Assembly (NCBI RefSeq): GCF_025602895.1 | Contig: NW_026516476.1 | Location: 1-34,160, forward strand | Source: Polychytrium aggregatum | Lineage: Eukaryota; Chytridiomycota; Chytridiomycetes; Polychytriales | DNA: 34,160 nt | Direction of reading: 5' to 3' | Part shown: positions 1,430 through 34,160 of the stretch, in pieces | Layout: the number at the start of each line of letters is the position of its first letter | Position numbering within the stretch: the first letter of the stretch is position 1 | Translations under genes and position numbers: made by a program | Notes under the pieces: model-generated | Seen by the model: the letters and a program-made list of their open reading frames with translations, nothing else | Told to the model about the DNA's origin: nothing | The model's database searches: none

Positions 1430-1663
1430 TTTTTTTTTTTGTTTACAATAGTTGTATATTCAGGAATATTCAACAAGCCATCAGTACCATGCGGTACCCG
1501 GCAGTGGGCGTACAAGCAGGCTCACACGCCCCTGTTGCGGCTCTCGCCGACTCTCCAGCCCACACGGCGAGCCATGCGGGTGAACACTTCCTCCAATAGG
1601 TCCCACAGGGACTCGCATGTCTCCAGGTCCCGCTCGGGGACCCTTTCTCTCTGGCCATGGGAG
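1430..1663 (-). mobile_element. LINE family LA, copy LA-2: 3' end (left part, split by Gy2)
   Basis: Eleven T (1430-1440) represent the poly(A) tail. They are followed by the 3' UTR (1441-1521) and the last ORF2 codons (stop TGA, complement of 1522-1524). The stretch matches 15753-15975 of LA-3 with a few substitutions, for example the synonymous Leu codon change at 1591-1593. It ends at 1663, where the Gy2 LTR begins. The element continues at 13993-14961. Confidence 0.9.
1522..1663 (-). pseudogene. LINE LA-2 ORF2, last ~47 codons (interrupted by Gy2)
   Basis: This is the C-terminus of the ORF2 polyprotein, including the segment LWDLLEEVFTRMARRV. LB ORF2 ends similarly with LWELLENVFTRLVSDL. 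The reading frame is continuous with 13993-14961 once Gy2 and one copy of its 5-bp target duplication are disregarded. It is not expressible as such because Gy2 separates it from the rest. Confidence 0.8.
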
Positions 1664-2454
1664 TGTTAGGGTCCGGAGGGGACTCAACGGCAAAAGAAGA
1701 AGTGAGCTCGAAGTGAGCTCAGGGAAAGCAAGGGTAAAGTCCGAAGTGGACTCGGAGAGGGAGCGAGGGAAGCAAAGATCCGTTCAAGATAAGACTAGTC
1801 TCGAAATGAGACGTGAGGAACACTCAGAGAATAAAGTAGAAGGCACTTTATTTAGTCCTATTTTGAACGCTGAGGTTCGACTACACATCGCGGGGGTCAG
1901 GCTATTTATAGATAAGTCCGGACTTGGCAGCGAAGGGCGGCCAAGGGAGGGAAAAGTGGGCGATCGAGCAGGGCGAAGGGGGCGATGCACGAACGAGGGC
2001 CGAGAAGGACCACCGAGACAGGTAGAGAACCAAAGCGAGAGAGGCGCAAGCAAAAGCGAAGCACCTGGCAGGAGAAACGTGCAAAAGCGAAGCAATGTGA
2101 CTCAACGTCCAAGAAGCGGATTGGTCAAAGAACAGATTGGGGCGAACGCATGCAAGATAGGCGAGGGTTTGGGGTGGTCAGGCAGGTCATGAGTCACCGG
2201 TGGGGGGACACATGACCGGCAGCCGAATTGCAACCAATCGCAGCAAGGCGCGTGCACAAACAAACCGGCGCGTGCGAAGAAGACAAAGGAAGCGGAGCAG
2301 CGCGGGGAAACGGAAGTGCGGAATGGGCGGAAATGGCAGGCAAAGGGCGGAAAATTGGAGGGGAACTGCAAGGCTACACACAAACAAACAGAAAGGCTAA
2401 AGAACAGCCAAGTGTGCAGTCAAAGTGGAGAACAAGCAGGAGCTATCCCTAACA
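1664..2454 (-). repeat. Gy2 3' LTR (left)
   Basis: 791 bp, apparently identical to the right LTR, so insertion was recent. On the minus strand it holds a TATAAATA box (1903-1910), the predicted RNA start at 1871 and an AATAAA polyadenylation signal (1847-1852) just inside R. It borders LINE LA-2 on the left and the Gy2 polypurine tract on the right. Short open frames inside the LTR have no recognisable domain. Confidence 0.95.
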
Positions 2455-2466
2455 TCATCCCCTTCC
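2455..2466 (-). other. Gy2 polypurine tract
   Basis: On the minus strand GGAAGGGGATGA lies directly against the 3' LTR. This is the expected plus-strand primer for Ty3/Gypsy elements. It shares GGGGATGA with the Gy1 tract. The pol stop codon (2467-2469) is immediately upstream. Confidence 0.85.
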
Positions 2467-2575
2467 TTAGCGACGAACTCCGGGCGTCGCCTTCGGCTTT
2501 GAGGGATAGCGAAGGTGGAAATCAGCAACAAGATCAGTGGCGTGGGAAACATTGGCAGCGGGCTCCCAAGACCGG
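2467..2575 (-). pseudogene. Gy2 pol, 3' terminal part (end of chromodomain), separated by Gy1
   Basis: Taking the minus strand from the Gy2 pol break at 8493 and continuing at 2570 (one copy of ACCGG kept), the frame is restored exactly. It encodes SWEPAANVSHATDLV and then about 19 more residues to a TAA at 2467-2469. SWEP followed by a helix is the usual chromodomain C-terminal half, matching SWEPANYVNAPDKIADF in Gy1. The uninterrupted pol would have been about 1292 residues counted from 12267. Gy1 therefore cut the chromodomain, and the truncated protein would end in LTR-encoded sequence. Confidence 0.9.
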
Positions 2576-2960
2576 TGTGAGGACCACGACAAGCAACGAC
2601 ACTGGACGACCAGGTGCTTGGCGAACAACGATAAGCTATATTACGACTTATCAGATAACAACAAGTGTTGTTCGAACTGCAGATACAAAATGGGTGCAAG
2701 AAAGGAGGGGCTTTATAGCCAAGAGGGAAACCGAAGGGCGAAAGTGGGCGAGAGGGGTGGAGCGACAAACGAGGGACGAGATGGGGGTGCGAGGGAGGCG
2801 GAGCTGCTAGAGAGAGGGGCGAAGCACAGCGCAGTCGGAGGCGAAGTAAGAGTCATCGGCGCCAGCCAATCAGGGAATACACGCCAAGACAAACAAACAT
2901 GACTCACGGTGCATCACGCGCAGCAGTCCACACGTGTTCCCAACGTGCATGATCATCACA
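2576..2960 (-). repeat. Gy1 3' LTR (left)
   Basis: 385 bp, same sequence as 8108-8492. It is flanked on the left by the target duplication ACCGG and on the right by the PPT. It carries the same TATAAA box and predicted start as the right LTR (offset 5532: TATA 2712-2717, start near 2678). Confidence 0.95.
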
Positions 2961-2973
2961 TCATCCCCTCCCC
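2961..2973 (-). other. Gy1 polypurine tract, overlapping the pol stop codon
   Basis: On the minus strand GGGGAGGGGATGA abuts the 3' LTR. Its last three bases, TGA (2961-2963), are also the pol stop codon, so the coding region runs through the primer tract up to the LTR. Confidence 0.85.
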
Positions 2974-5900
2974 AAACTACGGCCACTCCTGCGAACAATA
3001 AGTCCAGGCTTGTCGGGGTACCGGCGGTGGAAGTCGGCTATCTTGTCGGGAGCGTTAACGTAGTTGGCGGGCTCCCAGCTGCGATGATCAGTCGAGTAGC
3101 CCTTCCAATCAACGAAATAGCTCAACTTACCGCGGACCAGCTTGGAGTCGAGGATCTCCTGGACTTCATACTCCAAGTGGTCGTCGACGCGGACTGGCGG
3201 AGGAGGGTCTTGGATGCGGCCGGGGAGGGTGTTCGACTTGTGGGGCTCAAGGAGGGAGACATGGAACACCGGATGGATCTTGAGATCCTTGGGAAGGTCG
3301 AGGCGGAAGGCGAGGGAACCGATGGCTTCGACGATCTTGTAGGGTCCGATGCGCTGGTAGTCCAACTTCTTGCTTGGACGGGTGGTCTTGATGTTGCGTG
3401 TTAGGACCCAGACTTGATCGCCAGGAGCGAACTTGGGAGCGTCGGACTTGTGGGCATCCGCAAAGCGCTTGTAGTCCGCCTTGGCCTTCTCGAGGTTCTC
3501 CTTCAGCAACGCCAAGTTGTGCTGAAGGTGTTCGACTCGGTCGGTCGCGGAGGGGACATCGAGGCTGGAAGGAAGGACCGGAGACTCGAATCGAGGGTTG
3601 AAGCCGTAAGTCGCCAGGAACGGGGAGGCCTTGGTCGAGGTGTGCTCGAGGTTGTTGTATGAGAACTCGGCGAGCGGGAGCAGCATCGCCCAGTCATCCT
3701 GCTGGTACGAGGTGTAGCAGCGGAGATGCTGGTTGATGACTTGGTTGACCCGCTCAGTCTGTCCATCGGTTTGGGGGTGGAACGCCGTGGACAGACTGGT
3801 CTTGATGCCGAGTTCTGAGCACAGGGCCTGCCAGAACCGCGAGGTGAACTGGCTTCCTCGGTCCGAGACGATGTTGTCCGGGAGACCGTGGAGACGGAAG
3901 ATGTTGTCGAGGAACAGCGACGCTGTTTCCTCGGCACTTGGGAGGGACCGACAGGGAAGGAAGTGGGCCATCTTGGTCAGGCTATCGACGACGACAAAGA
4001 TGCAAGTCTTGCCGTTGGACTCGGGGAGGTCGGTGATAAAGTCCATCGTCACCAGAGACCAGGGTCGCGATGCCGTCGGGAGGGGCTGCAAGTATCCAAA
4101 CGGCTTATGTCGAGGGACTTTCGAGCGTGCACAAGTGTCGCACGTCGAGACATAAGCCTGGACATCCTTGCGGATTGAGGGCCACCAGAACTGCCTCGAG
4201 ATCAGTGCCCGAGTCCGCCGAATGCCAGGATGTCCAACAGCGACAGGATCGTGGCATGACTTGAGGACGGGGACTCGACACGACTCGGGCACAACGATCT
4301 TGTCCATGAAGGTGAGGAGACCATCCTTCAGGACATACTTGGGATCGTTGCGGAGCTGGTCCAGGGACGGGTCCTTGGGTTGCTCCTCGGCAATGAGCTT
4401 GAGCAAGTCCACAGGGCGAGTGGAACTTGCATCCGAGGAGCGACGGACGGCACAGGCGAACGACGAAGGTGGCAGCAACGGGGGAGGCTCCTTGGACACA
4501 GGTGCGGACGGAGGGACGTAGTCCGGGCGGCGGGAGAGAGCGTCGGCCTTGCCGTTCTTTGGACCGGGGAGGTACTGGATCCGGAGGTCGAACCGAGACA
4601 GGAACTGCGACCACCGGGCGTGTCGCTGGTTGAGGATGCGGGCCGACGCCAGGTATTCCAAGTTCTTGTGGTCGGTAAGGACTTGGACTGGGTGTTGGGC
4701 ACCTTCGAGGTAGTGTCGCCAGACCTCGAAAGCCTCCTTGATGGCCAAGAGCTCCTTCTCATAGATGCTGTAGTTGCGTTCAGCATCCATGAGCGTGCGG
4801 GAGTGGAAGGAGCACGGGTGCAGGTGGCCATCGGAGCCGCGCTGGGACAGGACGCATCCGATCGCAAAGTCTGAGGCATCAGACTCCACGACAAAGGGCT
4901 TGGATGGGTCGGGGTGCGCAAGGACGGGCTCGGAGACGAAGGCTTCCTTGAGGGACTGGAAAGCCTTGTGGGCGTCGGGGGACCAGCGGAAGACCTGGGA
5001 CTTCTTGAACAGGAGCGTGAGCGGACCGGCGATCTTGGCATATCCGTCAATGAAGCGACGGTAAAAGTTCGAGAACCCAATGAAGGAGCGAAGGTCGGAG
5101 ACATTGCGGGGGACGGGCCAGTCGACAATGGCGGAGAGCTTTGCTCGTTCCATCTCGATACCCTTGGGCGAGATGACGTAGCCGAGGAATGAGACCTTGT
5201 CCTTGGAGAACTCGCACTTCTCCAGCTTGCAGTACAACTTTGCAGCCTGGAGCTTGGCCAGGACCTGCTTGACGTGATTTGCATGCTGAGTGGGGTCAGC
5301 GCTGTAAATCAAAATGTCGTCAAGGTAGGCAATCGCAAAGTTGTCCAGTTCATCACGAAGGACATCGTTGATGAAGTGCTGGAAGGTGGCCGGAGCATTG
5401 GTGAGTCCAAAGGGCATCACCAAGTACTCGAACTGGCCGTAACGAGTGCGAAAGGCCGTCTTCCACTCGTCGCCTGCGCGGATACGCAGCAGGTTGTAGG
5501 CCCCGCGGAGGTCCAGCTTCGTGAACACCTTCGCGTCCCGGACTCGGTCCAGCATCTCATTGATCAACGGTAAGGGGTAACGATTCTTGACCGTGATCGT
5601 GTTCAATGCGCGATAGTCCACGCAGAGACGCAGAGAGCCGTCCTTCTTCTTGACGAAAAGGATCGGAGAACCGGCGGGAGAGGACGAAGGACGGATGAAC
5701 CCTTTGACGAGGTTGTCGTCGAGGTATTCACGAAGGGCCTTGAGTTCGGGCTCTGACAGGGAGTAGAGCGGTCCGAACTTGGGGGTCTTGCCGGGCTCCA
5801 GGTCGATCGGGCAGTCGTACGTCCGGTGCGGGGGCAACGAATCGGCTTCCTGCTTCGAGAAGACTGAGCCAAACGACTTGTACTCCTCGGGGATCGACGT

Positions 5901-6920
5901 CGAGAGGGGCGTCGGATCCGGATCGGTGGCAGGAAGGACGAGGACTTGGAACACAGTCAGGGGGTCGGGGCTAGACTGTGTGTCGAGGACGGACTGCTCC
6001 AACGACTTGTACCTGATCGCTTGGACACGGACAGGAGCGGGGCTGGGAGCAACGGGACCGGGGAGACCAGGACGGACGGAGACGAGACCGGAGGGACCAG
6101 GACGAGCAGCACAGGAACAGGGCACCTCACTCGGAACACAATCAGAATAACGTTGAGCGATCACTTTATTCTGATCATCTTCGCGAGTACAAACGGTGCG
6201 AGGCGAAGAAGCGAGCACCACAGTGGTGTCGGTAGAGGCACGAGGGAAAACATTGGGTGTGTCGCCAACAAGAGGAAGGGGAGAAGGAGAAACGGAAGAA
6301 ACGGAAGGGAGGGAAGAGGCATCCACAACCTTGAGGATGTGGTTTGCAGGACGGGGAAGGCAAAGGAGTCCACGAGCCCAGTGGAACCTAGGTTCGATGG
6401 ACTGCAGCCAGGGATAGCCAAGGATAACAGGTTGGTGGGGAGACTTAATGACATCAAAGGAAAGGTGTTGAGTGTAGTCCCCAAGAACAATCTTGAGGGG
6501 TTCCGTCTCAAAAGTGATGGGGCCGGAAGAAAGTGGCTGGCCATCGACACCTTGGACAGGGAGGGGAGTGGATTTGGAAACGAGGGGGACCGAGAAGCGG
6601 TCAACAAAGCTCTCGTCGATGAAGTTGCCGGAGGCACCAGAATCGACGAGAAGTTGGCAAGAGAGGGAGCGACCAGAAGGGAGAACAAGAGAAGCGGAGA
6701 AAACGGGAGAAGACGAAGAAATCGACGAGACGCACGAAGAAGGCTCGGAGCAGAGATCAGTGTCGGCAGCATGGTTCGAGCAGATGACCAAGTTCGCAGG
6801 TGGTGTGGAGATCGGGAGCTCTGTCAAAGACATCTGGGAGCCAGATGTGCCCTTAGAAGAGGCGGGTTTGACAGAGTGCGATCCACCACCGACTACATTG
6901 ATCATTCCACACATAGCCAT
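2961..6920 (-). CDS. pol: Gy1 Pol polyprotein (protease, RT, RNase H, integrase, chromodomain)
   Basis: Numbered from the first in-frame Met at 6920 it is 1319 residues. The frame is open further upstream and overlaps gag, so translation most likely enters by -1 frameshift at 7022-7028. Domains in order: aspartic protease with LVDSGASG (catalytic D93); reverse transcriptase with YLDDIL (D534, D535); RNase H with ESDASDFAIG; integrase with an HHCC zinc finger (H-x4-H type, CDTC), then D960, D1020 and E1056 giving the classic D-D-x35-E; and a C-terminal chromodomain (about 1243-1305; EYEVQEILDSK, VDWKGY, SWEPANYV). All catalytic residues seen are present. The chromodomain would guide integration to marked chromatin, as established for chromoviruses. 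It acts in virus-like particles and in the nucleus. There is no frameshift or stop inside. Confidence 0.96.
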   Translation of the reverse strand: MAMCGMINVVGGGSHSVKPASSKGTSGSQMSLTELPISTPPANLVICSNHAADTDLCSEPSSCVSSISSSSPVFSASLVLPSGRSLSCQLLVDSGASGNFIDESFVDRFSVPLVSKSTPLPVQGVDGQPLSSGPITFETEPLKIVLGDYTQHLSFDVIKSPHQPVILGYPWLQSIEPRFHWARGLLCLPRPANHILKVVDASSLPSVSSVSPSPLPLVGDTPNVFPRASTDTTVVLASSPRTVCTREDDQNKVIAQRYSDCVPSEVPCSCAARPGPSGLVSVRPGLPGPVAPSPAPVRVQAIRYKSLEQSVLDTQSSPDPLTVFQVLVLPATDPDPTPLSTSIPEEYKSFGSVFSKQEADSLPPHRTYDCPIDLEPGKTPKFGPLYSLSEPELKALREYLDDNLVKGFIRPSSSPAGSPILFVKKKDGSLRLCVDYRALNTITVKNRYPLPLINEMLDRVRDAKVFTKLDLRGAYNLLRIRAGDEWKTAFRTRYGQFEYLVMPFGLTNAPATFQHFINDVLRDELDNFAIAYLDDILIYSADPTQHANHVKQVLAKLQAAKLYCKLEKCEFSKDKVSFLGYVISPKGIEMERAKLSAIVDWPVPRNVSDLRSFIGFSNFYRRFIDGYAKIAGPLTLLFKKSQVFRWSPDAHKAFQSLKEAFVSEPVLAHPDPSKPFVVESDASDFAIGCVLSQRGSDGHLHPCSFHSRTLMDAERNYSIYEKELLAIKEAFEVWRHYLEGAQHPVQVLTDHKNLEYLASARILNQRHARWSQFLSRFDLRIQYLPGPKNGKADALSRRPDYVPPSAPVSKEPPPLLPPSSFACAVRRSSDASSTRPVDLLKLIAEEQPKDPSLDQLRNDPKYVLKDGLLTFMDKIVVPESCRVPVLKSCHDPVAVGHPGIRRTRALISRQFWWPSIRKDVQAYVSTCDTCARSKVPRHKPFGYLQPLPTASRPWSLVTMDFITDLPESNGKTCIFVVVDSLTKMAHFLPCRSLPSAEETASLFLDNIFRLHGLPDNIVSDRGSQFTSRFWQALCSELGIKTSLSTAFHPQTDGQTERVNQVINQHLRCYTSYQQDDWAMLLPLAEFSYNNLEHTSTKASPFLATYGFNPRFESPVLPSSLDVPSATDRVEHLQHNLALLKENLEKAKADYKRFADAHKSDAPKFAPGDQVWVLTRNIKTTRPSKKLDYQRIGPYKIVEAIGSLAFRLDLPKDLKIHPVFHVSLLEPHKSNTLPGRIQDPPPPVRVDDHLEYEVQEILDSKLVRGKLSYFVDWKGYSTDHRSWEPANYVNAPDKIADFHRRYPDKPGLIVRRSGRSLGRG

Positions 6921-7003
6921 GCGTTCGACACTTACCTCATGCTCCTTACCATCGACGCTTGCTTCTGGAGGAAGGGGAGACGGCTCCAGATCTAAGCCTC
7001 CAC

Positions 7004-7987
7004 TTAGATCTGGGCCTGGTCGTTTCCCGACTCGAAGTGTTCCTCCTCACCATCATCGTAGACGATGGTTCGGACAACCTTCGAACGGGGACGGGAGCCG
7101 GGAGCCTGAGGACGGGAGCCGGGGAAGCGGGAACCAGAGGCGGGAGCACGGGAGCCGGACTTGAGGGGGCAGGACTTGGCGACGTGGCCGGGCTTGCCAC
7201 AGCGGAAGCAGAGGCGCTCCTGGAAGCGGCGGTTCTTCTCCTCGGGGGTCAGGCGGCTGACGACGGCGGCGTCGATCTGCATCGGCTCGGAGTAGAGAAC
7301 CGGAGGCTCCTGGGCGGGCGGCTGGAAGGACGGGGTGCGGGAGTTGAAGGCCTGGGTGCCGAAGGAAACAGGGCCAGTGTTTCGGAGCTCGTTGTTGAGC
7401 TCGATGATGCGTGCATCGATCTTGAGGCAACGCTCGACGAACGGGACCAAGCGGAGAGGGAGAGGGTCGATGAAGGAGAGGCGCTGCTTGATCTCCCTCG
7501 ACAGGCCACGGCGGAAGGCGGAGATCTTGGCTTCGTCGTTCCAGGGAAGGTCGGCGGCAACGCGGAGGAACTCTGAGGCATAATCCATGCACGAGCGGTT
7601 GCCCTGTGCCATGGAGGAAAGGAGCAGCTCGGCAGTGTGGGTGCGGTCGGGATCGTCAAACGCTTGGCGAAAGCGTTCCATGAACGAGTCGAACGAGTGC
7701 AGGATTTGATCGTTCGACTCGATCAAGGGAGTCGCCCACTGGAGGGCCGGACCAGTGAGCAAACTCAAGACGTAACCCACCTTGACTTGCTCGGACGGGA
7801 ACCTGGATGCCTGGAGCATCATGAGCAGGCGGCACTGGTTGACGAAGGGGCGGAACTTTGACCTGGTGCCGTCGAACTTGTCCGGGGTCGGCATGTGCGG
7901 GAGCTGTGGGGCGGCGGAAGAATGTGTGGTCCGGAGGAGAACCAGTTCCTCCTGGAGGGCAACGATTTGGGCCTGGAGTTGGTCCAT
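7004..7987 (-). CDS. gag: Gy1 Gag (capsid and nucleocapsid)
   Basis: 327 residues from an ATG at 7985-7987. It starts with a short coiled-coil-like helix (MDQLQAQIVALQEELVLL), followed by a Retrotrans_gag-type capsid region (about 60-210, with WATPLIESND and FMERFRQAFDD). Near the C-terminus is one CCHC zinc knuckle, CFRCGKPGHVAKSC (C260, C263, H268, C273), then a Pro/Ser/Arg-rich tail suited to RNA binding. Gag assembles the virus-like particle and packages the RNA. The stop TAA (7004-7006) lies just after the G-GGA-AAC heptamer that should shift a minority of ribosomes into pol. The leader from the predicted RNA start is about 222 nt. Confidence 0.95.
   Translation of the reverse strand: MDQLQAQIVALQEELVLLRTTHSSAAPQLPHMPTPDKFDGTRSKFRPFVNQCRLLMMLQASRFPSEQVKVGYVLSLLTGPALQWATPLIESNDQILHSFDSFMERFRQAFDDPDRTHTAELLLSSMAQGNRSCMDYASEFLRVAADLPWNDEAKISAFRRGLSREIKQRLSFIDPLPLRLVPFVERCLKIDARIIELNNELRNTGPVSFGTQAFNSRTPSFQPPAQEPPVLYSEPMQIDAAVVSRLTPEEKNRRFQERLCFRCGKPGHVAKSCPLKSGSRAPASGSRFPGSRPQAPGSRPRSKVVRTIVYDDGEEEHFESGNDQAQI
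7022..7028 (-). promoter_or_regulatory. Gy1 -1 ribosomal frameshift heptamer G-GGA-AAC
   Basis: In the gag frame the codons read tcG GGA AAC, the canonical X-XXY-YYZ pattern. Slipping back one base after GGA gives AAA CGA CCA GGC and continues open into pol past the gag stop. Pol is in the -1 frame relative to gag (difference 1067 nt, remainder 2). Confidence 0.8.
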
Positions 7988-8094
7988 GTGGGCTTTGAAA
8001 GTGGGGAGCGAGGATGCAGGGAAGACAACAGAGAATAGAAGGATGAGGGCAGCAACGAAGCCTCAGCCAAGCAGGTGGTCAGACAGAGAGAGGG

Positions 8095-8105
8095 AGTTCG
8101 AACAA
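8095..8105 (-). promoter_or_regulatory. Gy1 primer binding site, self-priming type
   Basis: On the minus strand TTGTTCGAACT lies 2 nt inside the 5' LTR. It is perfectly complementary (11 nt) to AGTTCGAACAA within the LTR (8210 to 8200). No TGG complementary to a tRNA CCA end is present. This is the Tf1/sushi arrangement, in which the RNA 5' end folds back as primer. Confidence 0.75.
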
Positions 8106-8107
8106 TA

Positions 8108-8492
8108 TGTGAGGACCACGACAAGCAACGACACTGGACGACCAGGTGCTTGGCGAACAACGATAAGCTATATTACGACTTATCAGATAACAACAAGTGT
8201 TGTTCGAACTGCAGATACAAAATGGGTGCAAGAAAGGAGGGGCTTTATAGCCAAGAGGGAAACCGAAGGGCGAAAGTGGGCGAGAGGGGTGGAGCGACAA
8301 ACGAGGGACGAGATGGGGGTGCGAGGGAGGCGGAGCTGCTAGAGAGAGGGGCGAAGCACAGCGCAGTCGGAGGCGAAGTAAGAGTCATCGGCGCCAGCCA
8401 ATCAGGGAATACACGCCAAGACAAACAAACATGACTCACGGTGCATCACGCGCAGCAGTCCACACGTGTTCCCAACGTGCATGATCATCACA
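8108..8492 (-). repeat. Gy1 5' LTR (right)
   Basis: 385 bp, upstream of gag in the direction of transcription. On the minus strand: TATAAA at 8249-8244, predicted RNA start at 8210 (39 nt downstream, the first base of the segment complementary to the PBS), and R-U5 from 8210 to 8108. It is followed on the right by the duplicated target ACCGG and the cut end of Gy2 pol. Confidence 0.95.
8244..8249 (-). promoter_or_regulatory. Gy1 TATA box
   Basis: TATAAA on the minus strand, 39 nt upstream of the predicted RNA start at 8210. The Gy2 TATA box has exactly the same spacing to its own predicted start, which supports both assignments. Confidence 0.6.
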
Positions 8493-11400: not shown

Positions 11401-12267
11401 CGACACCGTAGGATACGTCTCCGGCGAAGGAGGACGGATATCCATTTGGGCAGCGAAAATGTCGAGCTTGTCTTCCCGTGCAAGACGGAGAAGACTCGCC
11501 GCATTAACGAGCTCAATGTCGGGCGAAGATAAAGCCGTTGGCTCTTCAGAAAGCGAAGCAGAGTCAAGGCGGGAAGAAAGGGAAGGCGAAGTGCCAAAGG
11601 AGGGAACCGGTGTAAGGGAAGGACCGGAGGGAGGAAGAGTCAAAGGCGAAGTGCCCGAAGGGGGAGGCGAAGTGCTAGAGGTGGACGAAGTGTCCAAGGA
11701 AGAAGCAGAGACATCCGCGAGGATGTGTCCATCAGCAAGGCAAGAGGGATCGGAGAATGAAAGGGAGAGGGACTTCCAATTGACAACTGGATTATGCAAG
11801 CGCATCCAGGGAAGACCAAGAGTGATGGGAGTGGTGGAGAGTCGAGTCACAAGAAAAGAAATCGACTCGGTGTGGGAACCAATGGTCAACGTCACAGGAA
11901 CGGTTTGGAAACGAATGAAACCGGCCGAAGAACCATCAGCAAGAGAAACGGAGTAAGGAGTAGAAAGAGGGATAAGAGAGAGTTTATGGAGATCCGCAAA
12001 GGCAGGATCAATGAGGGCAAGAGCGGTGCATCCATCATCAATAAAGACAGAAAGGGAGATGGAGACCGGGCCAGAAAGACTCATGACGACAAGGGTGGCC
12101 GGAAGAAGAAGCTTATCGTCCGATAGTGACGAGTCAAGGGGGGAAGATGTTCGTATCGCCGAACAGACCACCTCGCTTACTTGCGAGGTGCTGCTCGGCT
12201 GTGGGCATTTCCCGAGTTCCGTTTGACCAGAACCGGGCACTGCTGAACATCGCGACTGCCGGGACAA
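8493..12267 (-). pseudogene. pol: Gy2 Pol polyprotein, main part, truncated in the chromodomain by Gy1
   Basis: About 1258 residues in the open frame from 12267 (entry by -1 frameshift at 12207-12213; the first codon is TTG, not a real start). Domains: protease with an unusual IDDGC active-site triplet (D77-D78-G79 where DSG or DTG is usual); RT with YLDDIL (D510, D511); RNase H with EPDASDFALG; integrase with an H/C zinc finger (CEACQRAK) and D938, D998, E1034 (D-x35-E); then a chromodomain start (EEFEVETVLDSR, VQWKGYPETDR) ending at the Gy1 insertion. The remaining codons are at 2467-2570. Apart from the insertion there is no stop or shift, so the protein was complete until recently. Confidence 0.93.
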
Positions 12268-13130: not shown

Positions 13131-13187
13131 CGGATCGAGTAGGGAAAGAGAGGCGAAAGAAGAAGAAAGGCCGGAAAGCCAAGAGGG

Positions 13188-13199
13188 AGCGTTCAAAAT
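13188..13199 (-). promoter_or_regulatory. Gy2 primer binding site, self-priming type
   Basis: On the minus strand ATTTTGAACGCT lies 2 nt inside the 5' LTR. It is perfectly complementary over 12 nt to AGCGTTCAAAAT in the LTR (13409 to 13398), the predicted 5' end of the RNA. Gy1 has the same layout with a different sequence. Confidence 0.75.
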
Positions 13200-26300: not shown

Positions 26301-26618
26301 TCGGAATGACCGATCCCCTTGAGATTGGCCGGAGTGCAGCCTGGATGCGCTGCAGACCGCGTTCGCGCTCGTCCAGCAGCGCCAAGAGGTACTGGGCGCG
26401 GACGGCAGGATCCTCGAGCTGGGCGATCTTCCACTGCCATTGGTCGACCTTTGGGTAGTACTTTGGCTGTACCCGCAGAGTCGCCCAGATGGGGAAGTGG
26501 TCGGACTGGCCACGGAAGGCACCGGCAGTGTCGACCTGCAGCAGCGGGTCGTTGTTGGCCTGGCGATGCGACACAAAGATGTAGTCGATCGTTGTCCAGC
26601 TGGGACCCCGCTGCCGGG
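23395..26618 (-). mobile_element. LINE family LB, copy LB-3 (5'-truncated)
   Basis: Poly-T 23395-23408, 3' UTR 23409-23523, then ORF2 coding sequence to a truncation at 26618 (after ctgccggg), corresponding to 29841 in LB-4. It is nearly identical to LB-4; differences include an Arg/Cys change in MNKI(R/C)DDEYS. On the right the LB-4 poly-T begins at once, and the rest of ORF2 and ORF1 are missing. Confidence 0.93.
23524..26618 (-). pseudogene. LINE LB-3 ORF2, lacking the first ~194 residues
   Basis: One uninterrupted frame of about 1031 codons, equal to residues ~195-1224 of LB-4 ORF2. It keeps only the end of the endonuclease (TIDYIFVSH, SDHFPIWAT), losing the Asn, Glu and first Asp catalytic residues. 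It retains a full RT (FLDIKAAYDTV, WFADDGVLI) and the C-terminal region. There is no ORF1, promoter or start codon in context, so it is a dead-on-arrival copy despite its open frame. Confidence 0.9.
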
Positions 26619-26646
26619 TTTTTTTTTTTTTGTTACTATAGTCAAC

Positions 26647-26652
26647 TTTATT
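26647..26652 (-). terminator. LB polyadenylation signal AATAAA
   Basis: AATAAA on the minus strand, 15 nt before the last templated base (26632) and the poly(A) tail. It is conserved in all LB copies long enough to contain it (for example 33016-33030 and 33140-33155). LA lacks it and has GAATATAC near the same place. Confidence 0.75.
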
Positions 26653-26746
26653 TAAGAAGACAAGCCATCAGGTCCAACAGGTTGGTACCCCGGCACGTTG
26701 AGTACACAGGCAAGCCTATTTACTCCTGTTGCAGCCTAGTGCTGCC

Positions 26747-29700
26747 TCAGCTGCCCACAAGGTCTGAGACCAAGCGGGTGAACACATTTTCAAGCAGTTC
26801 CCACAAGGGAATAGCAGGATCGACGGGAGGTCGGGGTGGTGGAGTGACAAGTGCTGGCACTATACTACGCTGTGATGAGGGTGCAGGGAGAGACTGCAAG
26901 GGTGGGACTACACTGGTTGTGGGAGTGGGTGCTGGTACTGGGTGTGCACCAAGTGCGAATGCTCGGAAGGCAGTGCGGGGAGCGGGTACATGAGCAGCAA
27001 GCGATCCAAGTGCGGGAGGGGTGCGAGTGCGAGGGGGAGTGCGATCGAAAGAGAGCAGGTCCAGCAGCTTGTCCACTGGTCCCACTCCGGCTATACCACT
27101 TTCCACCCAAGTCGGGTGGGCCGTCTTGAGGGCTGCGACCTTGCGGACCAGGACTTGATGCGGATCCACACACTGCTGTGCGTGGGTCCTGGTCAAGTCG
27201 ATCCCGGATCCGTGTCGAGCCAGGTTCTTGCACTTGCGGTATCCGAACCTGAAGTGGCCTGGGAGAGCACCGAGTCGCCATCGGACCATGAACATGAGCA
27301 TGACCATGGATCCTTGGTACCCGCGAGCCTCCCAGAGTCCCGACATCTTGGTCGACGGGGTGCAGGCGGCGGTGAGCTGCTTGGAGCGGTCGAAGCCGTT
27401 CTTCATGTGGTCCTCGAAGATGAGGGTCTTGATCGGGACGGGCTGGGGTCGGGGCGGTCCGGGCGGCGGCGGCTGGTGTCGGGTCTTGCCTCGGTAGATC
27501 TCCGTGGCCGTGAGGGAGTGGTCGGCCTCTTGTCGGCGGACCACCATGGCCCAGTGCGGATCGGCTCGGACTCCTTGGCCGAGGAACTGGTCGGGGTGGT
27601 AGGGCGCAATGATCTTGTTGCGCAGGATCATCGACAGCATCTTGTCGCCGTCAGAGACTTGGTCGTCCCAGCGGGCCCAGTTCTGCAGGGCCAGCATCTT
27701 GACACGGACGGACATCTTGGGGAGGCCGCAGTTGAGGTGCATGGCACCGACGGGAGTGCCGGGGCCGACGCGGAACATGGTGCGGAGGGCCGTCATCTGG
27801 GCGTCGTCGAGGCGGTCGCGCAGAGCCGGGTCCGGGATGTCCATGGCCATCCCGTATTCGAGGGTCGGCCGCACAAAGGTCTTGTAGACCTGGGTGATGG
27901 TCTTGGCCGAGACCTTGCCGAGGGTGATGCCAAGTCCAACCACGGTGTCGGTGACCATGTGGACCTTGCGGAGGAGCTTGTCGAACTGGAGGTCCGGGCG
28001 GAATCCGTCAATGTCGACCATGACACCGAGGTAGCGGAACTGGAGGACCTTGGGCAGCTCGGTGCCGTACAGCTTGGCGGGATGGAGCTGGTCGACGTTG
28101 CAGGCCGAGTACAGCACCTCGCACTTGGGAGGCGAGAAGCGGTAGCGATTGTCGACACTGTGACGCTCACAGATGTCCAGCATGGCCTGGGTGCGGCCAG
28201 CCGGACAGATGAGGACACCATCGTCGGCAAACCAGAGCGAGTTGACCCGGAGACGGTGGTGGCGACTGGAGGCAAGCACAAGTCCGTCCTCGGCTCGGAG
28301 CAGTCCAGGCAGGTCGTCAATGTGGGCACTGAACAGAAGGGGACTCAGGACCGAGCCTTGGATGAGACCCTTCTGCAGCCACACAGGCTGTGACGTGCGG
28401 CCCTTGCTGGCGACGCGGACAAGAGTGCGGTCGAACATGGCCCTGAGGACCCCGACGGCGACCGGACCAGCACCTCGGGCGGCGATCTTGTCCCAGAGGC
28501 GCTCCCGCCAGACAGTGTCGTAGGCGGCCTTGATGTCGAGGAAGACCAGGCTGTACTCGTCGTCGCAGATCTTGTTCATGCGGACAAGAGCGTCGAGCGA
28601 GTACACCTGGTCGAGGGTGCCTCGGTCCGGGCGGAAGCCTCCCTGGGCAATGTCCATGATGCCGATCTCGCGGGTGAGGAACGGCAGCAGGACTCGCTCG
28701 GCGATCTTGCGGAGGACCTGGGTCAACCCGATGGGCCGGTACATGGCCGGATCGAGGATCGAACCCTTGTTCTTGTAGACCGGGTGGATCAGGACAGTGT
28801 TCCACTCGGTCGGGACGACGGAGGCCTTGAGGGCGGCCAGCAGGATGGCCCGGAGCCAGGGAGCGACCACGGGAGCGACAGGGTGCAGCATCTCGGCCTT
28901 GATCTTGTCCGGGCCGGAGGACTTGCGCTTGGGGGACTTGACGATGGCATCGGCCACCTCGTCCGACGACAAGCGGGGAATGGATCGATCCTCGGGGAGC
29001 AGGCGCGGAACAGTGTCCAGGGGTCTTGGGCCGACGGTCCGGTCAAAGGCGGCACCGGGGGTGTCCTGGGAGTGCGAGGAGACCTTGCCGTAGTGGACCA
29101 CAAGTCGCTCGAGGGCCTCGTCCGAGTTGTCAAAGTGGAAGGCGTCGTCGAGCTCCTTGCGCTTCTTCATGGCGGCCAGGGACTTGGCGACCTCGGAAGC
29201 GTTGAGTGAGTGCAGCTTGTTCATGGCCAGGGTCTCGGCTGCTCGGCGGGACTGGACGATGAGGTTCTTTTCTTGTTTGCGGACAGCGCGGAGTTCGGCG
29301 CGCTTGTCCTCGGCGACGCGGAGGGAGAGCCCGGGCAACTTGAGCTGGTAGATGAGATCGCGGCGCCTCTCGCGAAGCTGCCGCATCTCGGGGATCAGGG
29401 CCGGGTCCTTCCAGACGGTCTTGATGGAAGCCTTGCCGATGGTGGAGTCGGCAGCGGTGGTGATCAGGGCGATCATGATGGACCAGGCGCGGTCGATGCA
29501 GTCCTGGGCCGCACTCTCCGAGATCGGAATGACCGATCCCCTTGAGATTGGCCGGAGTGCAGCCTGTATGCGCTGCAGACCGCGTTCGCGCTCGTCCAGC
29601 AGCGCCAAGAGGTACTGGGCGCGGACGGCGGGATCCTCGAGCTGGGCGATCTTCCACTGCCATTGGTCGACCTTTGGGTAGTACTTTGGCTGTACCCGCA

Positions 29701-30421
29701 GAGTCGCCCAGATGGGGAAGTGGTCGGACTGGCCACGGAAGGCACCGGCAGTGTCGACCTGCAGCAGCGGGTCGTTGTTGGCCTGGCGATGCGACACAAA
29801 GATGTAGTCGATCGTTGTCCAGCTGGGACCCCGCTGCCGGGTGTGGGTCGGGATCACAGCTGGAGGCACAACGCGGAGACCGGCGCGGGAGACAGTGTCC
29901 TCGAGGATCTTCTCCCTGCCACGGAGCGGCGTGGGCAGTCCGCTCAGGGCACTGAGGTGGGCATTGAAGTCACCCACCACAATGACCTGGGCGTCGGGGA
30001 GGGCGGCCTTGGTGTGGATCGACTGGAGGGCCTCGCGGTAGTCGTCCAGCTTGAGGCTCGGGGACAGGTAGAAGTTGCCGATGTGGATGACGTGTTTGTA
30101 TGTCACCCACATGGCGTCGCCCTTGTCGCTGACTTCAATGTTGGTGAAGTCGTGCGGGTCGATCCTGGCCGGGTTGTAGAGGATGGCGATGCCTCTACCG
30201 GCGCGGCAACGGGGACCAGGGACCTTGACGGCATAGCCACAGAGAGGGCTGCGGGGTTCGAGGTCGGCGAGGGTTTCTTGGACACCGACAAAGTCGATGT
30301 CGTTGGTGTCGATGAGGTTCTTGAGTTCAACGTCGTTGACGTTGATGCCACAGACATTGAAGGAAGCGACGGTCAGGGATGTCTGGGCCCTGCCGCCTCC
30401 CTGCGAGGGGTGTGGATTCAT
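26747..30421 (-). CDS. LINE LB-4 ORF2: APE endonuclease and reverse transcriptase, intact
   Basis: 1224 residues, ATG at 30419-30421 overlapping the ORF1 stop (ATGA). Residues 1-240 are an apurinic-type endonuclease with N22 (SFNVCG), E49 (VQETL), D151/N153 (VVGDFN), D205 (TIDYIF) and D233/H234 (SDHFPI). A linker follows, then the RT (about 530-800) with YRPIGLTQVLRKIAERV, D629 in FLDIKAAYDTV and D733-D734 in WFADDGVLI. The C-terminal region has VRWRLGALPGHFRFGYRKC and RTHAQQC (C1064, H near 1080, C near 1084). The first zinc Cys seen in LA is Tyr here. No RNase H domain was seen. The protein should nick DNA or extend an available 3' end and copy the element RNA from its poly(A). All catalytic residues are present. 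Confidence 0.95.
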   Translation of the reverse strand: MNPHPSQGGGRAQTSLTVASFNVCGINVNDVELKNLIDTNDIDFVGVQETLADLEPRSPLCGYAVKVPGPRCRAGRGIAILYNPARIDPHDFTNIEVSDKGDAMWVTYKHVIHIGNFYLSPSLKLDDYREALQSIHTKAALPDAQVIVVGDFNAHLSALSGLPTPLRGREKILEDTVSRAGLRVVPPAVIPTHTRQRGPSWTTIDYIFVSHRQANNDPLLQVDTAGAFRGQSDHFPIWATLRVQPKYYPKVDQWQWKIAQLEDPAVRAQYLLALLDERERGLQRIQAALRPISRGSVIPISESAAQDCIDRAWSIMIALITTAADSTIGKASIKTVWKDPALIPEMRQLRERRRDLIYQLKLPGLSLRVAEDKRAELRAVRKQEKNLIVQSRRAAETLAMNKLHSLNASEVAKSLAAMKKRKELDDAFHFDNSDEALERLVVHYGKVSSHSQDTPGAAFDRTVGPRPLDTVPRLLPEDRSIPRLSSDEVADAIVKSPKRKSSGPDKIKAEMLHPVAPVVAPWLRAILLAALKASVVPTEWNTVLIHPVYKNKGSILDPAMYRPIGLTQVLRKIAERVLLPFLTREIGIMDIAQGGFRPDRGTLDQVYSLDALVRMNKICDDEYSLVFLDIKAAYDTVWRERLWDKIAARGAGPVAVGVLRAMFDRTLVRVASKGRTSQPVWLQKGLIQGSVLSPLLFSAHIDDLPGLLRAEDGLVLASSRHHRLRVNSLWFADDGVLICPAGRTQAMLDICERHSVDNRYRFSPPKCEVLYSACNVDQLHPAKLYGTELPKVLQFRYLGVMVDIDGFRPDLQFDKLLRKVHMVTDTVVGLGITLGKVSAKTITQVYKTFVRPTLEYGMAMDIPDPALRDRLDDAQMTALRTMFRVGPGTPVGAMHLNCGLPKMSVRVKMLALQNWARWDDQVSDGDKMLSMILRNKIIAPYHPDQFLGQGVRADPHWAMVVRRQEADHSLTATEIYRGKTRHQPPPPGPPRPQPVPIKTLIFEDHMKNGFDRSKQLTAACTPSTKMSGLWEARGYQGSMVMLMFMVRWRLGALPGHFRFGYRKCKNLARHGSGIDLTRTHAQQCVDPHQVLVRKVAALKTAHPTWVESGIAGVGPVDKLLDLLSFDRTPPRTRTPPALGSLAAHVPAPRTAFRAFALGAHPVPAPTPTTSVVPPLQSLPAPSSQRSIVPALVTPPPRPPVDPAIPLWELLENVFTRLVSDLVGS

Positions 30422-32703
30422 TGGAGTCGTGCAGCGCTGCTGCTGGCCCGGGGGCCCTCTCCTTCAGAGTCAGTGTCCATGACGGACAGCGGGACTCTGT
30501 AGGCGGGGTGAGGCTTGCTGGGCTTTGACGAGGCACCAGCGGCGGGGGCAGCAGCAGCAGCGACAGCAACGACAACGGCAGGGGCAGCGGTAGCGGCAGC
30601 GGCAGAGGCAGACGACGAGGCAGCGGCAGCGGCAGAACCAGGGACCTTGGGGACGGCGGTGATGTCCGCCCGCTTGACCTCCTTGCCGGATAGGGCCTTC
30701 TTGAGGAGCGAGTCGTACTCGTCGCGGTACTCCTCGGGGATGCGCATCTGGATGCAGCGGCGGACAGGGGCGGTCTTGGCCTTGGCTGCCTGGCGGAGGG
30801 ACTTTGCCATAAAGTTCTTGATGGCATCGGATCGGGACAGGGCCAGTCCATGGTGCTTGAGACCATGGATGACGTCGTAGGCCGGTACGACCCTGACCCT
30901 GCCATGTGTGGACGACAGCGACTCCAGACGGGCACCAAGGTCGGCCTTGTTGGATTTGTCGCGGACAAGGACCTCCATGACCGTGGCCTCAGGGAAGTTG
31001 ATCTCGGCCAACTCCCTGGTGTCGATGCCGCATCGCTTGAGGTTGCGGCGGACACTGCCGAGGTCGCCACAGCGGATGCCCTCGACGTACAGCCAGTCCA
31101 TGTTGGTGACGGCCTCCCTGAACTTGTCGTTCCGGAGCTCAGAGTTGGCGACCGTCCCGGGGACAAGGACTGGCTGGCGGTGCTGGTTGGGCTGGATCGG
31201 CTTGGAGGAGCCTGGCATTCGGCCGGTGGTCAGCATCCTCTTCCATTCGTCGAGCTGGCTGGCCTCGGACATGCGGCCGACACGGCTCTCGGCCTCCCGA
31301 ACGTTCTTCAAGAGAGCGGCCTTGTACGAGGGAGACGGGGCGGAAACAGGGGCAGAGCCAGGGAGGGAGCCGGAGGACTGGGTCTTGGAACCGGGGGACT
31401 GGGTCTTGGGGGTGGCAGTCTTGTTGGCAACAGACTTGCGGAGCTGCTCCGTGGCACGGCTGATTGCCACATTGGACTTGGCGATCTTCTGGACCATGGC
31501 CTTGGTGGCAGCATCCATGTTGTCGGCCACGAGTGCCTCGAACAGGATGGACTGCACCCGGTCAGCCTCTCGCTTGAGGATAGCGAGGGCCTCCTCGGGT
31601 TTCATCGCAGGGACGGGAGCCTGGGACGGAGGAGGGGTCTTGGCCTTGACGACGGGTCGGGGCGGAAGGACGGGCCTGGCCTTGGGGACAGGGGACGCAG
31701 TGCCAACAGCATCAACAGCTCGACGAGCTGGATCGACGGGGTCAGCAGTGGAAGCAGGGGCTGCTCGAGGGGCGCCTTCAGAGGCACCACGGGGGACGGC
31801 GCGCTGCTTGTCCATGGTCTTGAGGCCGCACTTGGTGTGGAAGTTCTCCTTGAACTTGTCCGAGAACGCATCCACAAACAGCTTGCGGGACTCCTTGGTG
31901 GTGCGGCTCATGTGGGCCCAGAACTGGAAGGCCGACATCTGGCCGGGGCAGGGTCCGTCCTCGAGGGCCTGGGGACACTTGAGCTGGAGCTCGTCCTTGC
32001 CGTGCTTGACGACGATCCAGGGATCGGCCGAGGCGAGCTTGCACTTGCGGCACAGGACAGTGCACTGCAGCTTGGCGGTCACGGCCATCCACAGCTGGTT
32101 GTTCATCTTGGTGACGTCGATGATCTGGGTTGCAGCCTTCTGATCATCGACGTCGGACGAGGCGTGCCACTTGCGCCAGAACTCGTCGCGCCAAGGAACC
32201 GAGACGACGTCGGCACTGGGCTGGACAACAATGTCCATGGCACAGTGGTCTTGGTGGGGAGCGGCGGAGGAGGACACGGGAGCCAGGGACTCGGCAGGGT
32301 GGTCTTGGTCGGCACAGGAGGACGAGGGCTCAGCGTCAGGCTCTTGGTCCGGGCTGAGGTCTTCTTCGACATTGATGTCCTCCAGTTCATCAATGTCGAC
32401 GGCGGCACGGGCGGCAGCGCGGTCCAAGGGCGGGAACGAAAAGTCGGGTTCGGCCGGGAACCTGAACTCGGGCGGGGCCGGGAGCCTGGACTCGGGCACG
32501 GACACGGACGGGAACTCGGACTCGGGGAGACGCTCGTCATGCTCCGGCCTGGGGAGCATGGTCATTGCGTCGGGCAAGGACAGGCGACGCTTGGCGGGGG
32601 AGGAAGGGGTGGCCACGGGTCGCTCCTTGCGCTTGAAGATCAAGCTGCCGACAGCGATGGTCGAGGCCGGGAGAAGGGACTGCTGGGGTCTGTCCTTGGA
32701 CAT
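30418..32703 (-). CDS. LINE LB-4 ORF1 protein (gag-like, zinc-ribbon-like motif), intact
   Basis: 761 residues, ATG at 32701-32703. The N-terminal ~200 residues are Pro/Ser/Glu-rich and disordered, with a basic cluster (FKRKERPV, PAKRRLS). The motif C218-x2-C221-x21-C243-x8-C252 with VVKHGKDELQLKC and MSAFQFWAHM matches the LA spacing exactly. A Pro/Lys-rich linker leads to the second conserved block (YVEGIRCGDLGSVRRNLKRC, IDTRELAEINFPEATVMEVL, VRRCIQMRIPEEY). After it comes an Ala-rich low-complexity stretch before the C-terminus. Family unknown to me; an RNA-binding or chaperone role is inferred from its position as LINE ORF1. The ATGA overlap suggests coupled translation of ORF2. Confidence 0.9.
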   Translation of the reverse strand: MSKDRPQQSLLPASTIAVGSLIFKRKERPVATPSSPAKRRLSLPDAMTMLPRPEHDERLPESEFPSVSVPESRLPAPPEFRFPAEPDFSFPPLDRAAARAAVDIDELEDINVEEDLSPDQEPDAEPSSSCADQDHPAESLAPVSSSAAPHQDHCAMDIVVQPSADVVSVPWRDEFWRKWHASSDVDDQKAATQIIDVTKMNNQLWMAVTAKLQCTVLCRKCKLASADPWIVVKHGKDELQLKCPQALEDGPCPGQMSAFQFWAHMSRTTKESRKLFVDAFSDKFKENFHTKCGLKTMDKQRAVPRGASEGAPRAAPASTADPVDPARRAVDAVGTASPVPKARPVLPPRPVVKAKTPPPSQAPVPAMKPEEALAILKREADRVQSILFEALVADNMDAATKAMVQKIAKSNVAISRATEQLRKSVANKTATPKTQSPGSKTQSSGSLPGSAPVSAPSPSYKAALLKNVREAESRVGRMSEASQLDEWKRMLTTGRMPGSSKPIQPNQHRQPVLVPGTVANSELRNDKFREAVTNMDWLYVEGIRCGDLGSVRRNLKRCGIDTRELAEINFPEATVMEVLVRDKSNKADLGARLESLSSTHGRVRVVPAYDVIHGLKHHGLALSRSDAIKNFMAKSLRQAAKAKTAPVRRCIQMRIPEEYRDEYDSLLKKALSGKEVKRADITAVPKVPGSAAAAASSSASAAAATAAPAVVVAVAAAAAPAAGASSKPSKPHPAYRVPLSVMDTDSEGEGPRASSSAARLQ

Positions 32704-32810
32704 CGCTCAGCAGTGGGGAAGGGGACAGGGAGTGTGGGAGCGAGGGCGGGGAACTGGAGGGGCAGAGCTGGAACAAACACAGAGGTGAAAGCAGTGTGGT
32801 GCAGGCCACA

Positions 32811-32950
32811 CGGTGCAGCAAGAGCAATACAGGTGCAGCAGGAGCAGGACAGGTGCAGCAAGAGCAGGACAGGTGCAGCAAGAGCAGGACAGGTGCAGCA
32901 AGAGCAGGACAGGTGCAGCAGGAGCAGGATAGGTGCGGCAGGAGCAGAGA
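32811..32950. repeat. 20-bp tandem repeat, seven units, in LB 5' UTR
   Basis: Units of AGGTGCAGCARGAGCAGGAC in phase from 32831 to 32950 (six), plus a degenerate unit at 32811-32830. It lies between the ORF1 start and the 5' end of LB-4. LA carries 21-bp-spaced repeats of unrelated sequence in the same place. Confidence 0.92.
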
Positions 32951-32962
32951 ACTCGATGTGTC

Positions 32963-32996
32963 AGGGTTAGGTTAGGGGGGGTTAGGTTAGGTTAGG
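32963..32996 (+). repeat. Telomere-type repeat tract (TTAGG-like)
   Basis: Reads AGGG, TTAGG, TTAG followed by six more G, then TTAGG three times, on the + strand. The G-rich strand runs 5' to 3' to the right, as it would if the chromosome end lay to the right. The tract starts at the 5' end of LB-4 and ends exactly where the LB-5 poly-T starts. The pentamer and variable G number differ from the common fungal TTAGGG. Confidence 0.85.
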
Positions 32997-33120
32997 TTTT
33001 TTTTTTTTTGTTACTATAGTCAACTTTATTCAAGAAGACAAGCCATCAGGTCCAACAGGTTGGTACCCCGGCACGTTGAGTACACAGGCAAGCCTATTTA
33101 CTCCTGTTGCAGCCTAGTGC
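32997..33120 (-). mobile_element. LINE LB copy LB-5 (3' UTR stub)
   Basis: 13 T (32997-33009) followed by 111 nt of LB 3' UTR, cut after cctagtgc just before the ORF2 stop. It is joined on the left to the telomeric tract and on the right to the LB-6 poly-T (33121-33132). It carries the AATAAA signal but no codons. Confidence 0.92.
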
Positions 33121-34160
33121 TTTTTTTTTTTTGTTACTATAGTCAACTTTATTTAAGAAGACAAGCCATCAGGTCCAACAGGTTGGTACCCCGGCACGTT
33201 GAGTACACAGGCAAGCCTATTTACTCCTGTTGCAGCCTAGTGCTGCCTCAGCTGCCCACAAGGTCTGAGACCAAGCGGGTGAACACATTTTCAAGCAGTT
33301 CCCACAAGGGAATAGCAGGATCGACGGGAGGTCGGGGTGGTGGAGTGACAAGTGCTGGCACTATACTACGCTGTGATGAGGGTGCAAGGGAGAGACCTGC
33401 AAGGGGTGGGGACTACACTGGTTGGTTGAGTGGGTGCTGTGTTACTTGGGTGTGACACCAAGTGCGAAATGCTCGGAAGGCCAGAGGCGGGGAGCGGGTA
33501 CATGAGCAGCAAGCGATCCAAGTGCGGGATGGGGTCGAGTGGAGGGGGCAGTGCGATCGAAAGAGAGCAGGTCCATCAGCTTTGTCCACGTGGTCCCACT
33601 CCGGCTATACCACTTTCCACCCAAGTCGGGTGGGCCGTCTTGAGGGCTGCGACCTTGCGGACCAGGACTTGATGCGGATCCACACACTGCTGTGCGTGGG
33701 TCCTGGTCAAGTCGATCCCGGATCCGTGTCGAGCCAGGTTCTTGCACTTGCGGTAGCCAAATCTGAAGTGGCCTGGGAGAGCACCGAGTCGCCATCGGAC
33801 CATGAACATGAGCATGACCATGGATCCTTGGTACCCGCGAGCCTCCCAGAGTCCCGACATCTTGGTCGACGGGGTGCAGGCGGCGGTGAGCTGCTTGGAG
33901 CGGTCGAAGCCGTTCTTCATGTGGTCCTCGAAGATGAGGGTCTTGATCGGGACGGGCTGGGGTCGGGGCGGTCCGGGCGGCGGCGGCTGGTGTCGGGTCT
34001 TGCCTCGGTAGATCTCCGTGGCCGTGAGGGAGTGGTCGGCCTCTTGTCGGCGGACCACCATGGCCCAGTGCGGATCGGCTCGGACTCCTTGGCCGAGGAA
34101 CTGGTCGGGGTGGTAGGGCGCAATGATCTTGTTGCGCAGGATCATCGACAGCATCTTGTC
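33121..34160 (-). mobile_element. LINE LB copy LB-6, continues beyond right edge
   Basis: Poly-T 33121-33132, 3' UTR, ORF2 stop at 33248-33250, then ORF2 coding sequence to the window end. Bases 33595-34160 match LB-3 and LB-4 closely, while 33385-33590 contain many small indels. Confidence 0.9.
33248..34160 (-). pseudogene. LINE LB-6 ORF2 C-terminal part, partial, with indel cluster
   Basis: From 33576 to the edge the frame is clean and encodes the post-RT region (MLSMILRNKIIAPYHPDQFL, ADPHWAMVVRRQEADH, VRWRLGALPGHF, RTHAQQC). Between about 33385 and 33590 roughly fifteen one- or two-base insertions, deletions and substitutions relative to LB-4 break the Pro/Ala-rich tail into several frames. 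The flanks are almost identical to LB-4, so the damage is very local. It could be a mutation cluster or an error of the assembly near its end. Confidence 0.8.

Follow-up and report, generated by a model that had tools for sequence, protein, structure and literature searches.

Chromosome ends of the saprobic chytrid Polychytrium aggregatum are probably built by end-primed addition of long interspersed nuclear elements (LINEs), alternating with healing by telomerase and followed by spread of the resulting units through recombination. The window analyzed here, 34,160 bp, is the complete contig C195 of a 64.7-Mb, 418-contig assembly and carries copies of two LINE families, termed LA and LB. The original prediction, made from the letters of the window, described LA and LB as a telomere-associated pair that extends or rebuilds chromosome ends. 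It was right on structure and largely right on mechanism: terminal location, inward-pointing 3' ends and TTAGG arrays seated on LB support it, while the presence of telomerase and the spread of copies by recombination qualify it.

Self-comparison of the window delimited the LA and LB copies below, all of which lie in a single orientation, as had been predicted. The list includes two Gypsy-type long terminal repeat (LTR) elements and the positions of open reading frames (ORFs).

1..1429, minus strand: LA, 5' part with part of LA ORF1 (ORF 2-715), cut by the contig start; the real LA 5' end may lie elsewhere than 1429; 1-1233 matches 22163-23395 at 99.9% identity
1430..14961, minus strand: LA, 5'-truncated (about 1.2 kb), poly-T directly on LA at 1429; split by the LTR element 1664-13992 into 1430-1663 and 13993-14961, resuming beyond it (duplication GGGAG); matches 15738-15975 and 15971-16941
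1664..13992, minus strand: outer Gypsy-type LTR element, 791-bp LTRs at 1664-2454 and 13202-13992; a control insertion with target duplication
2576..8492, minus strand: inner, nested Gypsy-type LTR element, 385-bp LTRs, duplication ACCGG
14962..15714, minus strand: LB, 5'-truncated, 753 bp; 98.3% identical to 23397-24150
15715..15737, minus strand: LB 3'-end fragment, 23 bp
15738..23394, minus strand: LA, 7,657 bp; ORF1 20124-22754; ORF2 broken (19012-20253, 18021-19019, 17027-18124)
23395..26618, minus strand: LB, 5'-truncated, 3,224 bp; 98.6% identical to 26619-29842
26619..32960, minus strand: LB, longest in the window; ORF2 26747-30463; ORF1 region 30418-32706; 20-bp tandem repeat at 32812-32947 near the 5' end
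32961..32996, plus strand: telomeric stub on the LB 5' end (TCAGGG, TTAGG x2, G-run, TTAGG x3)
32997..33120, minus strand: LB 3'-end fragment, 124 bp, poly-T on TTAGG
33121..34160, minus strand: LB running off the contig end

Poly-T is present at all eight predicted junctions (1429/1430, 14961/14962, 15714/15715, 15737/15738, 23394/23395, 26618/26619, 32996/32997 and 33120/33121), with LA or LB copies on both sides. At each, the poly-T of one copy abuts either the 5' end of the copy before it or TTAGG repeats, the latter at only one of the eight (32967-32996, junction at 32996). Whether an interrupted copy resumes could be read wherever another LINE segment lies distal, which gave 18 distinct junctions from the window and the long loci read. 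On a strict reading, resumption was found at 0 of 18, upholding the claim that the interrupted copy never continues. The script flagged one junction as resuming, but there the 23-bp LB fragment is followed by an LA copy, and the LB distal to that is a new one starting from its own poly-T. Target duplications, predicted for the two Gypsy insertions and not for the LINE junctions, were likewise found at the LTR elements only, which are flanked by 5-bp repeats (GGGAG/GGGAG, outer; ACCGG/ACCGG, inner); the interrupted LA continues across the outer one. Overall, resumption was seen at four places where a non-LINE element interrupts LA or LB, one of them in the window and the others in further loci, with 5-bp repeats readable at all four. 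Ordinary nested insertion was rejected as the origin of the LINE junctions because none of those read resumes. Since the window is a whole contig, its right edge is the assembly end inside an LB copy and displays no telomere.

Genome-wide location and orientation agree with this anatomy. A motif from the LB 3' end gave 201 matches (at most 2 mismatches) versus 0 for a reversed control, excluding chance, and the LA 3'-end motif gave 30. Locations were counted on contigs whose length is known and reaches 200 kb or more, leaving aside smaller contigs, contigs of unknown length and unlisted matches; terminal means within 50 kb of a contig end. Among the matches listed, 49 of 53 LB 3' ends were terminal versus 9.0 expected, and 48 of these 49 pointed 3'-inward. 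Copies at one contig end are not independent of each other; the LB 3' ends counted represent two interior sites and 22 distinct contig ends, of which 21 agree. The exact LA motif was terminal in 14 of 15 cases and inward in 14 of 14, and looser LA-like 3' ends (n = 5) were terminal in three and inward in three. Searches with the LB endonuclease domain returned 154 genome matches. Those listed on large contigs were terminal in 31 of 32 cases and inward in 30 of 31 for LB, and 4 of 5 and 3 of 4, respectively, for LA. Five more endonuclease matches, four of them pieces of LB copies that the counts include and the fifth an unassigned 63% match on C402, all lie less than 7 kb from a contig end. Two control LINE families, again among the matches listed, were terminal in 4 of 11 cases (1.7 expected; 0 of 4 inward) at 40-45% identity and in 4 of 9 (1.5 expected; 2 of 4 inward) at 29-30% identity. 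Both exceed random expectation near ends, yet they fall far below LB and lack its orientation; generic LINE clustering at contig ends is therefore unsupported by these two families of the same genome. The expectation that copies are confined to contig ends with 3' ends inward holds for the great majority, with departures in a few interior copies, one reversed cluster and several inverted arrays.

Telomeric repeats can lie directly on the distal side of LB. Full-length LB, with its boundary at reference position 37, runs into TCAGGGTTAG in 17 places. Long terminal TTAGG arrays occur at six or more contig ends (at least C39, C40, C112, C204, C239 and C323, among the first 100 of 189 matches). 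Five of these six start directly on LB, one on a full 5' end and four on truncated copies, of which one measures 252 bp and one is a fragment of 49 bp; the sixth (C112) starts on a stretch joined to full LB. Five of the six arrays comprise 32-74 TTAGG units, while that of C323 is cut at the edge of the stretch read. At 12 distinct ends, compiled by hand, the first repeat unit was CAGG-type (CAGGG or TCAGG(G)) in 9, versus 12 of 332 later units (3.6%). The figure becomes 7 of 10 (p about 1e-8) without two ends whose letters the LINE wholly or partly supplies, and 9 of 14 when C112:710 kb and C183, each short of two TTAGG units, are included. At C40, C112 and C323 the reference sequence continues differently past the break, so the letters of the first unit were added there. 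A CAGG-type first unit is what telomerase would be expected to leave when it starts from a free DNA end, and its presence on a LINE end indicates that this end was the terminus at that time.

A domain of that enzyme is also encoded by the host. The RNA-binding domain of telomerase reverse transcriptase (TERT; PF12009) was found on C408 as three exon-like matches above cut-off. Telomerase domain and terminal TTAGG arrays together indicate that the LINEs supplement telomerase, with no replacement of the Drosophila type; strict replacement was rejected on the presence of the TERT domain. In P. aggregatum the telomere repeats are TTAGG, with TCAGGG and TTAGGG as rare variants (L009, L010, L023, L057 and L058); those of the amphibian chytrid B. 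dendrobatidis are reported as TTAGGG (PMC11797018).

On the proximal side, LB and LA poly-T is joined to more than one kind of sequence. Exact matches revealed 38 distinct LB junctions on at least two TTAGG units. Among the stretches read, 46 unique junctions lie off TTAGG tracts; a truncated LA or LB end underlies 25 of them, and other DNA the remaining 21. Counted among these 21 are a Gypsy-like end at C112:710 kb that carries one TTAGG, TAGG repeats on LB (C183) and at least two cases on a helicase stretch adjoining LB (C13 and C135). Both predicted settings, TTAGG and truncated copies, occur, and LB additionally lands on non-LINE sequence. On C183 (L052:200-244), an LB truncated near its 5' end bears TAGG repeats, not TTAGG, before the poly-T of the next LB. 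At LINE-on-LINE junctions, the next base of the interrupted copy was T in 20 of 24 testable cases (p about 1e-9), the T content of that strand being 18% in LB and 28% in LA, and this fits priming on poly(A). An L1-type cut is expected to leave a run of Ts; the usual pattern here is not such a run but one terminal T that also belongs to the poly-T. TTAGG stubs beneath LINE junctions hold 1-11 units per run. Where a stub separates a full LB 5' end from the LB that follows, its length is very often exactly five units, or 5 + TCAGGGTCAGGG + 5 (window 32961-32996; L010, L011, L016, L031, L041, L048, L049 and L059).

We propose the following cycle. At a short or broken chromosome end, the 3' end of the G-rich strand would prime reverse transcription on the poly(A) of LB or LA RNA. 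A TTAGG stub, an eroded LINE or DNA of another kind could serve as the priming end, and a terminal T on the primer would help. Because priming on poly(A) would take place at the chromosome end, the copy would be joined 3' end inward, without distal flank or target duplication. Its distal 5' end, full or truncated, would then be the free chromosome end, to be capped by telomerase (often with CAGGG first, then TTAGG) or to receive the next LINE. Repetition of the cycle would yield a head-to-tail chain, and recombination between ends would multiply its units. Priming at the end rather than at a nick, the order of events and any benefit to the host are the parts of this cycle that we infer.

Several observations weigh against end-primed addition as a complete account. 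LB is clearly interior in two cases, a 256-bp copy at C112:710 kb and a copy with its upstream stretch at C375:462 kb, and two further copies lie 50-57 kb from a contig end. Non-terminal LA is represented by one copy on C377, one endonuclease match at C46:458 kb and two of the five looser LA-like 3' ends. An LB cluster near the left end of C335 and an LA match on C24 have the wrong orientation, and inverted arrangements, head-to-head or tail-to-tail, are found on C28 (L034:3140-3141), C262 and C285. Faulty assembly, fusion of ends or rejoining of breaks may account for such interior, reversed and inverted copies. Many junctions and truncation points are common to several contigs, and TTAGG stubs often number exactly five units, which independent events would not predict. 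In addition, ORF2 retains an endonuclease that pure end addition does not need.

The shared breakpoints join C13 with C57, C135 with C46 and C20 with C170, and reference position 3598 is used on C38, C39, C207 and C224. Their recurrence on several contigs means that these copies are not independent events, and they were likely spread by recombination (break-induced replication) or are allelic copies. Two LB arrays are periodic, with units joined through TTAGG: one on C207 (L035) with alternating spacings of 2.81 and 2.96 kb, and one at C374:34.5-50 kb with a spacing of 5.18 kb. Shared breakpoints and the C207 array together indicate that the chain is a mix of primary additions and copied segments. 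We also considered 5' tags like those of HeT-A, in which transcription starts in the 3' end of a neighbor, as a source of the LB fragments of 23-252 bp and of the five-unit stubs.

The coding capacity of the elements bears on how they could join DNA. LA and LB are related two-ORF LINEs. LB ORF2 (26747-30463) specifies 1,238 amino acids with an apurinic/apyrimidinic (AP)-type endonuclease, matched at the N-terminus by Exo_endo_phos and Exo_endo_phos_2 of Pfam, and a reverse transcriptase whose best solved relative is human L1 ORF2p (61 bits), followed by R2 (47 bits). LB ORF1 gave no Pfam match. The layout of LA is the same, with ORF2 broken in the window. Among the matches listed, the 1,238-residue ORF2 frame is open in 43 of 74 LB copies with a complete endonuclease domain. 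A protein search with LB ORF2, scoring the 7,999 candidates that share most words, returned 16 proteins, all at 27% identity or less.

With an AP-type endonuclease retained and 38 junctions on TTAGG, LB might instead cut its way into telomeric repeats with that endonuclease, in the manner of TRAS or MoTeR, with distal parts removed and direct junctions created later by breakage, erosion, break-induced replication and telomere healing. The shared truncation points and the periodic C207 array do reveal recombination between ends, and MoTeR arrays are described as evolving likewise (PMC7367193). However, the 46 unique junctions off TTAGG tracts, 25 on LINE ends and 21 on other sequence, speak against this route, as do stubs of 1-11 units where five of six terminal arrays hold 32-74, and we judge it unlikely. 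Still less probable is template jumping, in which a chain is made in one step by an enzyme that ends or leaves one RNA and moves to another at its poly(A): the tiny 3' fragments (23-124 bp) and the overlap by one T found at 20 of 24 LINE-LINE junctions would fit, yet junctions on telomerase-made TTAGG stubs and on non-LINE sequence would be left unexplained. That the junctions are assembly joins we regard as hardly credible: there are 418 contigs, many small and repetitive, the inverted arrays on C28, C262 and C285 may be such artifacts, and seven of the eight window junctions have no counterpart in the other loci read, but false joins normally fall inside shared sequence and make no poly-T breakpoints, contigs of Mb size end in the same architecture, and several other breakpoints are shared between contigs.

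The proposed alternation of LINE addition and telomerase healing could have a further component upstream of LB. Beyond the LB 5' boundary, 41 copies enter one common stretch and the 17 noted above enter TCAGGGTTAG. Within the common stretch lies the 3' portion of a frame for a DUF5906/D5-like helicase, which reads in the direction of LB (L025:4521-7127, L023:281-2750, L020:5625-8095 and L018:7706-8214). Its DUF5906 score of 26.3 bits is just below the Pfam cut-off of 27.6, and the D5 likeness is our own reading of a putative helicase. We found 34 helicase matches, among which two types stop at a fixed distance from the LB boundary (1,520 bp in one and 1,371 bp in the other) and share 59% identity. 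The upstream stretch is common to LB copies with at least three different 3' junctions (C112, C124 and C375). A speculative and rather doubtful reading is that LINE addition and telomerase are interchangeable forms of end healing and that the real LB is a longer composite in which a DUF5906/D5-like helicase gene precedes ORF1, a composite that would resemble rotifer terminons, which collect oriented genes at telomeres. Against the composite, identical LB endonuclease domains lie beside both helicase types, showing that helicase divergence did not simply parallel that of LB, and one LB-helicase junction could have been spread by recombination. In the interior C375 copy, LTR-like sequence breaks the upstream stretch about 450 bp upstream of LB. 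The same contig (L033:5115-9575) carries a member of a large SEL1-repeat gene family, for which one query returned 164 proteins at E <= 0.001, the best hits being mostly from P. aggregatum among the 120 listed.

Fungal telomeric LINEs that we found described (MoTeR, FoTeR and their kin) are of the CRE clade; LA and LB are an AP-endonuclease pair in an early-diverging fungus. They appear to act at chromosome ends beside a telomerase gene, and the alternation of LINE addition and telomere seeding is readable base by base. The system therefore lends itself to asking how a LINE becomes an end-healing device with telomerase still present, a step expected on the way to telomeres of the Drosophila type. 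LINE-built ends may also explain many small repetitive contigs of the assembly as pieces of chromosome ends. A search of the open-licence PMC literature found no report of a telomeric LINE in any chytrid.

Among known systems, LA/LB resembles MoTeR and FoTeR in being a fungal telomeric LINE. In MoTeR (Magnaporthe) the 5' end faces the chromosome terminus, truncated copies are followed by telomeres added de novo, and arrays recombine with one another; both MoTeR and FoTeR (Fusarium) are CRE-clade elements of telomere repeats (PMC7367193, PMC12857005). They insert at these repeats and have a restriction-like endonuclease. LB differs in its AP-type endonuclease (Exo_endo_phos and Exo_endo_phos_2) and two ORFs, and also joins non-telomeric ends (38 exact junctions on at least two TTAGG units versus 201 LB 3' ends at up to 2 mismatches). 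TRAS and SART of silkworm are LINEs inserted in (TTAGG)n (PMC7265360). They occupy one fixed repeat position, with telomere on either side, unlike LB and LA, for which most unique junctions read (46) lie off telomere repeats. Agaricus chromosome ends are reported to bear Penelope-like elements, not LINEs (PMC7473861).

Other likenesses lie in how copies are added. At mammalian telomeres, endonuclease-independent LINE-1 is said, in work attributed to Morrish and dated 2007 (cited in PMC4700185), to be primed at an exposed end. That is an experimental situation, whereas LA/LB chains are resident in the genome and the element keeps an endonuclease domain. GilM and GilT of Giardia, which belong to a LINE lineage different from LA/LB and occupy a different host, are alike by description in their same-direction arrays with 5' truncations. 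Their arrays lie between subtelomere and telomere repeats, and the truncations are read as terminal erosion; the same source describes Drosophila HeT-A, TART and TAHRE as head-to-tail arrays of one direction, built by successive additions, in which the poly(A) end faces the centromere (PMC5537684). LA/LB shares with HeT-A/TART the single direction with the 3' poly(A) end inward (48 of 49 terminal LB 3' ends, among the matches listed) and the joining of each new copy to the end of the previous one with no resumption (0 of 18), versus four non-LINE insertions that resume. Drosophila lacks telomerase (PMC10088271), and P. aggregatum differs in its PF12009 domain and terminal TTAGG arrays; that LB ORF1 has no Pfam match is a further difference from HeT-A, TART and TAHRE.

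Nearest in kind, by description, is Zepp, an L1-type LINE by descent, which reportedly accumulated at the ends of newly formed minichromosomes (attributed to Yamamoto, 2003, as cited in PMC3446292). In Chlorella vulgaris and Coccomyxa, as with LA/LB, nested LINE copies occupy chromosome termini in a host with telomeric repeats. The domains of LB would fit the Zepp-type combination of L1-like reverse transcriptase and AP endonuclease, and L1 is the best solved relative by score. Zepp belongs to green algae (PMC10088271, PMC3446292), and its clusters in C-169 are mostly internal, one per chromosome (PMC3446292), whereas LA/LB is terminal at many ends, consists of two families and has a fungal host. 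Collectively, LA/LB works like the HeT-A or Zepp kind, minus the lack of telomerase that defines HeT-A.

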